The translations under genes and the position numbers were made by a program. The notes under the pieces are model-generated. The model was given only the letters and a program-made list of their open reading frames with translations. It was not told where the DNA came from and did no database searches. From Synechococcus sp. HK01-R (GTDB lineage Bacteria > Cyanobacteriota > Cyanobacteriia > PCC-6307 > Cyanobiaceae), in contig NZ_CP059059.1 of NCBI RefSeq assembly GCF_014217855.1, positions 1,178,001 through 1,242,000 of the forward strand: a DNA stretch of 64,000 bases. Direction: 5' to 3'. This document shows, one piece after another, positions 43,179 to 46,678 of this stretch; position 1 is the stretch's first letter; each line of letters starts with the position of its first letter.

Positions 43179-44675
43179 TTAGGCGTTAGCCCCAGCGCCA
43201 CCGCCGCAGATCCAGTTCACCAGGGTGCGCACGCCATACCCCGTGGCACCTGCTGGGTCGAGACCCCGACCTTTGTCGCTCCAGACCGTGCCTGCGATAT
43301 CCATGTGGGCCCAGGGAATCTCCCGGTCAACGAACTCGCGAAGGAACAGGGCCGCTGTGATCGAACCACCCGGACGAGGTCCGGTGTTCTTGAGATCCGC
43401 CAGCAGCGATTTCAGCCCCTCCCGGTAGCTGGACTGCATCGGCATCCGCCAGAGCCCCTCACCGGCCTGCTCGGCCGCTTGCCGCAGGCCATCGGCTAAA
43501 TCGTCGTGGTCGCTCCAGAGGCCGGCGATCTCCTCGCCAAGAGCGATCACACAGGCGCCCGTCAGGGTGGCGAGGTCCACGATGGCATCGGGCTTGAGCT
43601 CGCTGGCGTACACGAGGGCATCGGCGAGGGTCAGGCGCCCCTCCGCATCGGTGTTGTTGATTTCGATCGTGGTGCCGTTGGAGGCGGTCACGATGTCACC
43701 GGGATGCACCGCTGAACCATTGACCATGTTTTCGCAGGAGGCCACCAGCATGTGCACCTCCACCCCCTCGGGGCGCAGTTCGGCGATGGCGCGCATCGCT
43801 CCGATCACGGCGGCGCTGCCGCCCATGTCGTACTTCATCATGTCGATCTGGGCGGCGCCCACCTTGAGGTTGTAACCGCCTGAGTCGAAGGTGAGGCCTT
43901 TGCCCACCAACACCAGTCGCTTGCGGACCGCACCGTTCGGGCGGTAGGTGAGGTGGATGAATTTCGGATCGAGATCTGAGCCCTGGCTGACGGCCAGATA
44001 GGCCCCCATGCCCCGCTTGGCGCAGTCCGCACGTTCAAGCACTTTCAGCTCGAGGCCATGGGCCTGGGCAATGGTCGCGGCACTGTCTGCCAGGGCAGCA
44101 GGGGTGACGCTGTTCGGTGGTGCGGCCACAAGCTCACGGGCGAGTTCGACCCCCGCGCAGATCGCACCGACACGCTCCAGGGCACTGGCGGTGTCCGCCG
44201 GAAGCGTGCCGAGCAGCTCGAATCGCTCTGGCAGGGTGCGGGGGTCTGGTTTGCTGCGGAAGCGAACGTCGCTGTAAAGCGCTAGGCGGATCGCTTCAGC
44301 GACGGATAAGGCCTCGGCTGTTGCCTGGGCCGGTTGCTCGCTCCAGGGCAGTAGAACGCCGACACTGCCGCTTTCTGCTTTGCAGCCCTTGGCGGCGTTG
44401 GCGGCCGCCTGACGCAGGGCCGGGAGTTGTGGACTGGCGGCAGCACCCAGTCCCACGAGGATCAGGCTGCTGATTTCAGGGCGCAGCAGCTGGAGTTTGG
44501 CCAGTTCGCCTCCCTTGCCCTCAAAGCGCTGCCGCTTAAGCCAGGGAGCGATCGCGAGCCCCAGGCGCGTCTCCAGCTCTCCGATCAGACCCTGGGGATC
44601 CTGTTCATGGACGCCGACCACCAGGACGGATCCGCTCCAGGCCGAGAGGTTGGCCGGCGATAGCGAGAACTGCAT
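43179..44675 (-). CDS. pepA: Leucyl aminopeptidase
   Basis: PepA is an M17 metallo-aminopeptidase; it also binds DNA in E. coli. The 498-residue product has the substrate-domain segment VLVGKGLTFDSGGYNLKVGA, metal ligands in KYDMGGSAAVIGAMRA, and the diagnostic signature NTDAEGRLTLADALVYA. It also contains AHMDIAGTVWSDKGRGLDP near the C-terminus. Full length. Confidence 0.95.
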   Translation of the reverse strand: MQFSLSPANLSAWSGSVLVVGVHEQDPQGLIGELETRLGLAIAPWLKRQRFEGKGGELAKLQLLRPEISSLILVGLGAAASPQLPALRQAAANAAKGCKAESGSVGVLLPWSEQPAQATAEALSVAEAIRLALYSDVRFRSKPDPRTLPERFELLGTLPADTASALERVGAICAGVELARELVAAPPNSVTPAALADSAATIAQAHGLELKVLERADCAKRGMGAYLAVSQGSDLDPKFIHLTYRPNGAVRKRLVLVGKGLTFDSGGYNLKVGAAQIDMMKYDMGGSAAVIGAMRAIAELRPEGVEVHMLVASCENMVNGSAVHPGDIVTASNGTTIEINNTDAEGRLTLADALVYASELKPDAIVDLATLTGACVIALGEEIAGLWSDHDDLADGLRQAAEQAGEGLWRMPMQSSYREGLKSLLADLKNTGPRPGGSITAALFLREFVDREIPWAHMDIAGTVWSDKGRGLDPAGATGYGVRTLVNWICGGGAGANA

Positions 44676-44734: not shown

Positions 44735-45328
44735 TTAGCCATCGGCATTGAACGGTGTGGCCCAGCGTTCACGGGTTTCCTTGTTGAACGGCGGCAGCCA
44801 GGTTTGGATCAGTTGTTGTTCCAGGCGCCTTCGGCTGCGGGTCTCGCGCGGAACATCCCCCCAGAAGCGGATGCTGGTTTGGCCGCGCAGGCCCACGGCG
44901 CTGAGCGCCTCGCTGTAGCTCGCGAGATAGCTCTTGCAGTCGTGCTCGCCCTTCCAGCGGCGATCGGCCGCCACGGTTTCGCCGACATAGAGAAGGATTG
45001 GGGTGCTCAGATCCTCGGGGCGATCCATCACCAAGTAGATCGCCGGTCCCTGATGGGGACTCTCCGGCCAGCGCCAGAAGCTGAGGGGAAGGGGCTGCAG
45101 GGTCAGGGGTGCGAACCGCTCGAGGGGCTCGGTGCTGGCGAACAACTGGGTCTGCTGCACAGAGCCTGGCCCGGCGGGGGCAGCGAAGAGGGGGGCCTGG
45201 TGGCGCTGGATCCGCCTCTGCCAGTCGCGCAGGACCGATGCGCTGAGGGCGAGCTGTGGTTCGTTGGTGACTGTTCCTTCAGGCGGACTCTGGGCGAAGA
45301 GATCACCCTGACGGGGTTCTGGTGGCAT
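44735..45328 (-). CDS. GIY-YIG domain protein
   Basis: The C-terminal half of this 197-residue protein is a GIY-YIG nuclease fold. The GIY-like strand is AIYLVM (96-101) and the YIG-like strand is LLYVGET (112-118). R123 and R124 follow at the expected catalytic Arg spacing. The metal-binding Glu is E170 in RRLEQQLIQTWLPPFN, with N182 in PPFN, so the catalytic set seems intact. The N-terminal 90 residues are Pro/Gln-rich and unfamiliar. The HhH gene lies 3 bases upstream on the same strand. A nuclease role on DNA is inferred from the fold. Confidence 0.72.
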   Translation of the reverse strand: MPPEPRQGDLFAQSPPEGTVTNEPQLALSASVLRDWQRRIQRHQAPLFAAPAGPGSVQQTQLFASTEPLERFAPLTLQPLPLSFWRWPESPHQGPAIYLVMDRPEDLSTPILLYVGETVAADRRWKGEHDCKSYLASYSEALSAVGLRGQTSIRFWGDVPRETRSRRRLEQQLIQTWLPPFNKETRERWATPFNADG

Positions 45329-45331
45329 CGT

Positions 45332-45901
45332 TCAGCAGCCAGGAGGCAGGCTGGGGCCAGGTCGCCGCTCCCCGAAGCGGACCCGGCCAATCAGTTGCTC
45401 CACCACTTCCGGCGGCAGGCAGAGCCGTTCCTGCAGGTCGGCCAGGTTGTCGAAGGGGCGACGGCGGCGTTCTTGGATCAGCCGCTGAAGGCGATCGGCA
45501 GGCCAGAGCAACGCCGCCGTGAGTCGCTCCGGAGCAGCAGCATTGAGATCGAGAGGGGGAGCTGGGGGCTGGGGGGGGGCATCCCCATACCAATGGATGA
45601 CCAGGTGGGGGCGCCAGCGCTCCGCTAGCTCGGGAGGCAGATCGAGCAACTGAATCAGATCCTCAGCCTGGCTGAACTGCACGCCTCCCCGCTGAAGACG
45701 CAGCAGCAGATCCACCATGGCCTCACTGCAGCCAGGCAGTTGTCGCCACTGGGAGGCGCTGGCCCGGTTCACATCCACAACCCAGCTGGGTGGCTCGGGG
45801 GGGGCTGCTGGGGCTGGCCGTGCCGATGGTTCGGCCGGCAACTCACCCATGGCCTGCAACACCTTGCGGGCCAGCGGATCGAGCCAGTGGCCGCGGGTCA
45901 T
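45332..45901 (-). CDS. Helix-hairpin-helix (ComEA-like) protein
   Basis: The 189-residue product has two helix-hairpin-helix units: residues about 42-90 (VDVNRASASQWRQLPGCSEA) and about 117-172 (LDLNAAAPERLTAALLWPAD, then FDNLADLQERLCLPPEVVEQ). The VNRAS...LPG pattern is typical of ComEA-type DNA-binding domains. There is no signal peptide, so unlike ComEA it is probably cytosolic. The GIY-YIG gene starts 3 bases after its stop, indicating a bicistronic unit. Function is unproven. Confidence 0.72.
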   Translation of the reverse strand: MTRGHWLDPLARKVLQAMGELPAEPSARPAPAAPPEPPSWVVDVNRASASQWRQLPGCSEAMVDLLLRLQRGGVQFSQAEDLIQLLDLPPELAERWRPHLVIHWYGDAPPQPPAPPLDLNAAAPERLTAALLWPADRLQRLIQERRRRPFDNLADLQERLCLPPEVVEQLIGRVRFGERRPGPSLPPGC

Positions 45902-45934: not shown

Positions 45935-46678
45935 TTACCCAGACTCCCTCGGTCCCTGCCAGCGGGGCGGCCGGGCTGGCAGCTCCACCAGGCCATCGCG
46001 GAAGGCCATCACCACCGCATGGGTGCGGTCTTTCGCCGGTAGTTTGCGCAGCACGCTGCCGACGTGGGATTTCACCGTGTCGATGGACACCACAAGGGCA
46101 TCCGCGATCTCCCGGTTGCTCATGCCCCGGCAGAGCCCCCGCAGCACGTCTTCCTCCCGCAGGCTGAGCTCCGCAAGGGGGCCTTGGTCTGAGCCTTTCC
46201 CCAGTCGACCGTGACGAAGAACGCCGCTGATCATCGGATCGATGTATTGATCGTCGCTGTCGATCGCGTTGAGGGCGGCAAACACGGTGCCTGAACCGAC
46301 GTTTTGGTGGGCGCAGAGCCCATCAGATCCGGCATCAATCGCCTCAAGAATCGTGCGCACGATCGGCCGCTGGATCAGCATCAGGATCTTCAGCTGCGGA
46401 TACGCCACCCTGGCTCGACGCACCAGGCTGACGCCGCTGCCCGCTTCCAGGAGATCCGTGCAGAGCAGGAGGTCTGCCTCGCTGCTGCCGAGGCTTTGCA
46501 GGCATTCCTCCTCGCTGGTGGCTGCTGTGACCAGCGGACCCAGACCTTCAAACAGGCTCACCCAACTGGTGAGCAACATTCGATCGGCGGTGGCGATCGC
46601 CGTTCGGCTGCGTCGGAGCAGGCGATGGCCTTCACGCACGCGATTCTGCAGGGTGGGAATTCTTTGGCTGAAATCCAC
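45935..46678 (-). CDS. LuxR-family response regulator
   Basis: The 247-residue product has an N-terminal receiver-like region (RTAIATADRMLLTSWVSLFE) with a possible phospho-acceptor in LLLCTDLLEAGS, though the domain is diverged. The C-terminal LuxR-type DNA-binding helix-turn-helix is clear: LSLREEDVLRGLCRGMSNRE then IADALVVSIDTVKSHVGSVL. It probably regulates transcription; no partner kinase is adjacent. A DUF1825 gene lies divergently. Confidence 0.85.
   Translation of the reverse strand: MDFSQRIPTLQNRVREGHRLLRRSRTAIATADRMLLTSWVSLFEGLGPLVTAATSEEECLQSLGSSEADLLLCTDLLEAGSGVSLVRRARVAYPQLKILMLIQRPIVRTILEAIDAGSDGLCAHQNVGSGTVFAALNAIDSDDQYIDPMISGVLRHGRLGKGSDQGPLAELSLREEDVLRGLCRGMSNREIADALVVSIDTVKSHVGSVLRKLPAKDRTHAVVMAFRDGLVELPARPPRWQGPRESG

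Follow-up and report, generated by a model that had tools for sequence, protein, structure and literature searches.

What does a small protein with the residues of a GIY-YIG nuclease do in a picocyanobacterium, and does it work together with the protein encoded immediately ahead of it? The question arises from a locus of Synechococcus sp. HK01-R, in a window of 64,000 nucleotides (the whole stretch of DNA that was analyzed), where the gene of a tandem-HhH protein (45332..45901, minus strand, 189 aa) lies 5' of a nuclease gene (44735..45328, minus strand, 197 aa). A preliminary description of this DNA had placed the stop of the HhH gene 3 bases ahead of the GIY-YIG gene, and the ORF listing confirmed both frames on the minus strand with this spacing. 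The nuclease was delimited by its ORF, its fold and a search of its own genome, which returned one match. A longer plus-strand ORF (44804-45628) that overlaps both genes was taken to be mechanical. The flanking genes are a leucyl aminopeptidase of family M17 downstream (43179..44675, minus strand, PF00883 E=3e-122) and a LuxR-type response regulator upstream (45935..46678, minus strand, PF00196 E=2e-16), and probably neither is functionally part of the unit.

Domain structure and fold of the nuclease

Proteins of the GIY-YIG superfamily have two tyrosine-bearing strands (GIY and YIG) and a catalytic set of Arg, His or Tyr, Glu and Asn. In the window protein the catalytic domain spans approximately residues 94-193 (44750..45049, minus strand) and contains A-I-Y, L-Y-V-G-E-T, R124, H129, E170 and P-F-N182. 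As a single sequence it matches the Pfam GIY-YIG model weakly (E=0.0057, under the Pfam cut-off), and in an alignment built across the class (A4), 18 of the 35 sequences match this model at E<=0.01, the best at 8.8e-6. These 35 were chosen from 112 distinct nucleases, and in all of them Y98, Y114, G116, R124, H129, E170 and N182 are invariant. By comparison with I-TevI and UvrC, we take these positions to be the catalytic residues. The preliminary description had called them apparently intact and had named their conservation beforehand as a point on which it might fall; from Y98 to N182 the set is kept in the 35 sequences.

The predicted model of the nuclease has a mean pLDDT of 75.6, and within the nuclease domain blocks of ten residues range from 71 to 94. 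Its best structural alignment was to T4 endonuclease II (Z 7.0, 100 residues, rmsd 3.2), other top alignments being the UvrC N-domain (Z 5.9), I-TevI (5.8) and R.Eco29kI (5.2), all at Z values below 8, which can reflect a common arrangement. Eleven VIA-align rows exceeded Z 4 (7.0 to 4.4) and the next one fell to 2.8; seven of the eleven are titled GIY-YIG and the remaining four (T4 endonuclease II, I-TevI, a plant Grx N-domain and 9u75) presumably also belong there. Foldseek alone gave no match to the model at E<=0.001, and the PDB sequence search retrieved nothing with the single nuclease and an unconvincing best match (E=0.28) with the nuclease profile. From the residue set and the modeled fold together, we infer that the protein belongs to the GIY-YIG superfamily, and it is predicted to cut DNA.

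Clamp-binding-like motifs ahead of the nuclease domain

About 83 residues, mostly variable, precede the core of the nuclease, and two stretches of them (residues 8-24 and 54-65) have pLDDT <50 in the predicted model. Two motifs there have the QxxLF form. The first, QGDLF (residues 7-11; 45296..45310, minus strand), falls in the first flexible stretch and the second, QTQLF (residues 59-63; 45140..45154, minus strand), in or beside the other, N-terminal to the nuclease domain. A third and optional motif, QAPLF (residues 44-48; 45185..45199, minus strand), occupies the end of a helix predicted for residues 30-49. The consensus for binding to the beta sliding clamp is given as QL[S/D]LF or QxxLF in the accessible part of the source (PMC12309361). 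These clamp-binding-like motifs were absent from the account given in the preliminary description.

The motifs were counted in 71 representatives with <75% mutual identity, taken from the 112 distinct nucleases, and compared with 2000 shuffles. Every one of the 71 has one or more Q..L[FL] ahead of the core (13.6 on average and 25 at most in the shuffles), and 65 carry at least two (1.5 on average and 8 at most in the shuffles), although the shuffle counts ignore kinship and their significance is overstated because related sequences are not independent. The other six representatives have one motif only, and the second site of the f11 nucleases, from genomes that appear to be S. elongatus-like, is without the Q (ATDLF). 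As a control, the first 83 residues of 66 further ORFs in the window (a set that excludes both the HhH and the nuclease genes, displaced by the longer overlapping frame) contained two motifs in no case and one motif in seven. Over the class the first motif varies among QLSLF, QLPLF, QISLF, QPSLF, QGSLF and QGDLF, and the Q, L and F mostly stay. QAPLF is frequent in the family of the window; its Q44 is invariant, and the other positions are not kept outside the family. With the QxxLF pattern present and two of the sites in flexible stretches, these motifs are predicted to be hooks for the beta clamp.

DnaE, the polymerase holding the clamp, and MutS1, a known clamp partner, allow a comparison within the same genomes. 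DnaE has QxxLF at one site in 16 of 16 genomes examined: in the family it reads QGNLF in six of seven and QRNLF in the seventh, and outside the family four of nine show QGSLF, QADLF, QMNLF or QTNLF forms or repeats, the others having QGNLF. The class sample includes 21 family genomes, of which 17 were read for MutS1; in 15 of these QG[NSD]LF or QKNLF is located in a long N-terminal extension; one exception (L253) has QGSFF and the other (L252) none. Outside the family the N-terminal motif was found in 0 of 13 MutS1 sequences, and Q[LM]x[IL]F appears near the C terminus in 8 of them. Since DnaE and MutS1 share the QG[NDS]LF form, the nuclease motif has the form found in clamp partners of the same cells. 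In DnaE the QG form also occurs outside the family, so this is an agreement and not a joint shift; along these lines, the non-family nucleases often have QL where DnaE has QG, and the two do not shift together. The C-terminal tail of the family MutS1 had no clamp-like motif.

Distribution of the nuclease

The window family, which from its loci named Synechococcus, Prochlorococcus, Cyanobium and Vulcanococcus we take to be the Cyanobiaceae, has the nuclease in 235 of 251 genomes (one of them, G013, matched at E=7e-4 only) and in 167 of the 168 good ones. In the class sample it was present in 129 of 194 genomes, 21 of them from the window family; outside the family the count is 108 of 173, leaving about one third of the cyanobacteria there without it. 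The phylum sample gave matches in 36 of 146 genomes, all in the class of the window, seven of which are weak (E 1e-7 to 7e-5) and to other proteins; as the share of other classes in this sample is unstated, a restriction of the nuclease to cyanobacteria is not proven. In three cyanobacterial genomes without this nuclease family (L242, L243 and L244), a different protein of 450 aa has a GIY-YIG-like domain at its N terminus and, toward the C terminus, a long conserved region. The cyanobacterial nuclease/HhH pair also turned up on a contig labeled as a Rubrivirga MAG (L070), probably through a binning error.

Relatives of the nuclease appear on 31 plasmid records, 18 of them from Nostoc, and three of the five plasmid records listed are annotated as 'GIY-YIG nuclease family protein'. 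Phage records gave no match at 1e-5, on which ground a phage origin was rejected. Similarly, neither the nuclease nor the HhH protein matched a PADLOC model at E<=0.1, and an anti-phage defense system was discarded.

The HhH protein and its association with the nuclease

A single-query search found the HhH protein in 163 of 251 family genomes. Its first HhH domain (residues 42-100; 45602..45778, minus strand) matches HHH_3 (PF12836) at E=4e-8, a model that all 26 members scanned also match, and is ComEA-like: the best alignment of its model was to ComEA (8dss; Z 8.8, 65 residues, rmsd 2.1) and the ComEA profile matched at E=0.0035. PsbU of photosystem II also aligns with this domain (Z 5.8), so this type of HhH recurs in cyanobacteria in unrelated roles. 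The second domain (residues 118-175; 45377..45550, minus strand) is GspK/PolC-like, with PF03934 at E=0.0019, under its cut-off, and model alignments to GspK (6utu, Z 7.2) and PolC (3f2b, Z 5.2). The structure jobs took 34 and 25 of 38 family loci. A conserved N-terminal helix, HWLDPLARKVLQAMG (45845..45889, minus strand), has mostly invariant columns in alignments A2 and A5 and might be an interaction motif. A hydrophobic membrane or signal stretch was not evident by eye, the sequence being read without a predictor.

Just 5' of the nuclease and on the same strand, the HhH gene was found in 65 of 88 distinct family loci, where negative gaps come from over-long start choices. Among the 23 loci without it upstream, three (L073, L084 and L087) have <310 bases of upstream sequence, and in L073 and L084 a truncated HhH precedes the nuclease. 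Some family genomes keep the nuclease without the HhH protein, for example the Prochlorococcus-titled L064 and L075; both are present in L065 and L066. In another locus (L020) a 24-residue remnant of the HhH end lies directly ahead of the nuclease, as if the HhH gene had decayed in place. An apparent natural fusion of nuclease and HhH protein in Synechococcus sp. GFB01 (L085) was rejected for its undetermined residue and garbled junction, and this locus is still counted among the 65 with upstream HhH and the 71 motif representatives.

The picture outside the family is different. Of 20 fetched loci, one had the HhH gene closer than approximately 4 kb to the nuclease, with another ORF between, and six of the 20 genomes have no HhH protein anywhere. 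Clustering of the neighbors in these 20 loci gave, besides the nuclease, only antisense frames and pairs, and no conserved neighbors. Among the 173 non-family genomes, 72 have both proteins, 36 the nuclease only, 41 the HhH protein only and 24 neither (P=0.74), a count from which 16 of 129 non-family HhH matches had been dropped beforehand (E values above about 1e-9, or short fragments belonging to other frames, mostly of 550-600 aa). With such independent occurrence, an obligate two-protein system was rejected outside the family. In two f11 genomes (L121 and L157) both genes share a strand but are separated by about 0.5-0.7 kb, in which different genes lie: in L121 presumably a HicBA-like pair of two small plus-strand ORFs, in L157 what we take to be an acetyltransferase-like ORF. 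The arrangement is as if insertions had split an old pair. Adjacency across cyanobacteria, a test named beforehand, thus stood within the family, where the 3-base gap and the 65 loci uphold the tight two-gene unit of the preliminary description, and failed outside it. Given the separation and independent occurrence there, the HhH protein looks like a helper in one lineage and not a required partner of the nuclease.

A probable clamp-tethered endonuclease

We consider it probable, with some room left for doubt, that the nuclease is a clamp-tethered cyanobacterial repair endonuclease; clamp binding, cutting and a repair role are all predictions here. The QxxLF motifs of the flexible N terminus would tether it to the DNA-loaded beta sliding clamp (DnaN), and the tethered GIY-YIG domain would cut DNA at the replication fork or in its wake. 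The enzyme of picocyanobacteria would usually be made together with the ComEA-like tandem-HhH protein, which probably holds duplex DNA. Motif conservation, the match with DnaE and MutS1, the invariant residues, the fold, the phyletic spread and the gene order all point in this direction. Against the clamp tether, QxxLF is short and another partner could read it; the six single-motif representatives and the f11 second site depart from the pattern; the nuclease is missing from that third of the non-family cyanobacteria; and its plasmid relatives would be unusual for core replication repair. The leading candidates for its role are the cutting of fork structures and, in the family without MutL, the nicking step of a mismatch repair that MutS1 initiates; other roles share the remainder.

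Acting on fork or recombination structures, the nuclease would have an Slx1-like role, trimming flaps or cutting branched DNA where a clamp is loaded at a junction, with no link to mismatches. The proximity of its fold to T4 endonuclease II, the UvrC N-domain and I-TevI, the clamp-like motifs and a neighbor of DNA-binding type in the family are all consistent with such a role, which we put forward tentatively. A sign of branched-DNA specificity was not seen, however, and the accessible text of PMC5101192 counts ruvABC and uvrABCD among the core genes of cyanobacteria, so that such cutters exist already.

MutS1 without MutL

The alternative to fork cutting is a mismatch repair independent of MutL. 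In this case MutS1 would mark the mismatch and the clamp-tethered nuclease would nick the new strand in place of MutL or MutH, with the orientation of the clamp supplying the choice of strand. We consider this bold idea rather doubtful. It draws on the gene content of the family, in which MutL was over the cut-off in 0 of 251 genomes (40 have weak matches of 18 to 29 bits, nearly all over about 35-55 positions), while MutS1 was over the cut-off in 213 and matched to some degree in 168 of the 168 good genomes. GDFFE, the mismatch-reading motif of MutS, is kept in 8 of 8 MutS1 sequences read, seven of them from the family, and the N-terminal extension of the family MutS1 carries the clamp-like motif. 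In the Cyanobiaceae (Prochlorococcus and marine Synechococcus), MutS1 with its N-terminal QG[NSD]LF arm might conceivably hand over to a nuclease with QG[DNS]LF on the same clamp, at odds that we would set low.

The literature holds several observations that bear on it, each taken from the part of the paper that was available. The mutL gene is missing in several P. marinus strains (PMC5101192); the authors of PMC2921402, who noted that MED4 is without MutL, leave it open whether MutS works in a repair system there and ask for studies of it. In PMC4390886, MutS and MutL are called universal, cyanobacteria included, in contrast to the 0 of 251 found here, and a nicking enzyme yet to be identified is proposed to act in the mismatch repair of cyanobacteria. 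The mutation rate of Prochlorococcus HLII is low, 3.50e-10 per site per generation (PMC10837832), but polymerase fidelity alone could account for it. In S. elongatus PCC 7942 the deletion of mutS raised mutation about 10-fold, and mutL, also deleted, is absent from the five strains reported as raised (PMC9985602). This last point comes from the text and not from figure data, and that S. elongatus carries the nuclease would follow from the f11 genomes by inference; its MutL was a control in our MutL search. Finally, plant MSH1 unites MutS with a GIY-YIG domain (PMC12292046, in the portion available).

Several findings weigh on the other side. MutL was over the cut-off in 169 of the 173 non-family genomes of the class, many of which have the nuclease too. 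In 28 of 30 loci (L176-L205), the MutL of cyanobacteria outside the family reads EQH instead of DQHA and retains ACR and CPHGRP, so no nicking gap is evident in those cyanobacteria; the suggestion, from a strict D.HA pattern, that it is without the endonuclease motif was dropped for the same reason. One genome (G380, locus L283; one contig, 99% complete) has MutS1 and neither MutL nor the nuclease, and a clamp-like motif was not found by eye in its MutS1, so the MutS1 pathway may be gone there. A few good family genomes, G119 and G224 among them, have weak MutS1 matches only, which are probably MutS2. The mutS gene is also no neighbor of the nuclease, as the MutS1 of the same genome lies outside the window (G000:C1:738839-741292, L236), at 0.74 Mb versus 1.22 Mb for the pair. 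As for the other MutL-less genomes of the class sample outside the family, two (G270 and G287, both fragmented assemblies) have the nuclease and a third (G336, 62% complete) does not.

Other readings of the pair

A role of the pair in competence or DNA uptake, where the nuclease would process incoming DNA alongside the ComEA-like protein, draws on the alignment of the first HhH domain with ComEA. We judge it improbable: the membrane or signal stretch was not evident in the HhH protein, some family genomes have the nuclease and no HhH, the two occur independently elsewhere, and the clamp-like motifs point to the cytoplasm. A nucleotide-excision nuclease split into two chains, the UvrC analogy that the adjacent GIY-YIG and HhH parts had suggested in the preliminary description, was rejected and is hardly credible, since the same genome has an intact UvrC in one frame of 686 aa (in a search of 20 genomes, UvrC passed the cut-off in 19), ComEA and GspK give the best alignments to the HhH domains, and the pair separates in relatives.

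Comparison with known systems

UvrC, the nuclease of nucleotide excision repair, is built of GIY-YIG, UvrB-binding, RNase H-like and (HhH)2 parts. Our nuclease is like it in the GIY-YIG fold (Z 5.9), in the catalytic set and in having HhH domains encoded by the neighboring gene; it differs in that its 197 aa match GIY-YIG only and leave no room for the other parts, in the other HhH type of the neighbor, in its clamp-like motifs and in the presence of a separate UvrC. The core fold is also alike in T4 endonuclease II and I-TevI (Z 7.0 and 5.8), which belong to phages, whereas here the gene is chromosomal, near-universal in the sampled family genomes and without a match in phage records. ComEA resembles the first domain of the HhH protein (Z 8.8), but the latter has two HhH domains, no evident membrane anchor and an adjoining nuclease. 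The QxxLF motif is common to the nuclease and the clamp-binding DnaE, PolC and MutS, and its first and second sites lie in a flexible stretch; what sets the nuclease apart is that most representatives hold two or three copies in one small protein.

The MutL endonuclease of MutH-less bacteria and NucS/EndoMS are mismatch-pathway nucleases that bind the clamp and differ in fold from the GIY-YIG nuclease. They would be akin to it only if it nicks at mismatches, for which the chances appear modest, and the systems with a MutL endonuclease differ from the window family in that MutL was not found there (0 of 251). NucS serves organisms mostly without MutS and MutL, according to the available section of PMC5290159. 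Plant MSH1, a MutS with a C-terminal GIY-YIG domain, likewise links MutS-type recognition with this nuclease fold (PMC12292046, accessible part); in the cyanobacteria, by contrast, the proteins are separate and may share the clamp as a platform, and a fusion was not seen.

In the literature on GIY-YIG proteins together with cyanobacteria and competence, Prochlorococcus or the sliding clamp, no description of this nuclease was found in the text available. GIY-YIG nucleases and clamp motifs are each known; their joining in such a bacterial protein was not found in the same portions of the literature. The suggestion of a DNA-processing or repair role that has no published name is borne out to this extent, as no name turned up in the paper listings searched, and such a role is possible.

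If the clamp link alone holds, it would give a function class to a protein annotated as 'GIY-YIG nuclease family protein' or hypothetical. For a family without MutL, with a displaced clamp-like motif in MutS1 and a near-universal nuclease carrying a motif of the same kind, one gene and one peptide can be named as candidates. Were the nuclease indeed to nick at mismatches, MutS-MutL and NucS would be joined by a third wiring of mismatch repair and the small set of clamp-guided repair nucleases by a GIY-YIG enzyme, and it would help to explain the low mutation rate of some of the dominant phototrophs of the ocean.
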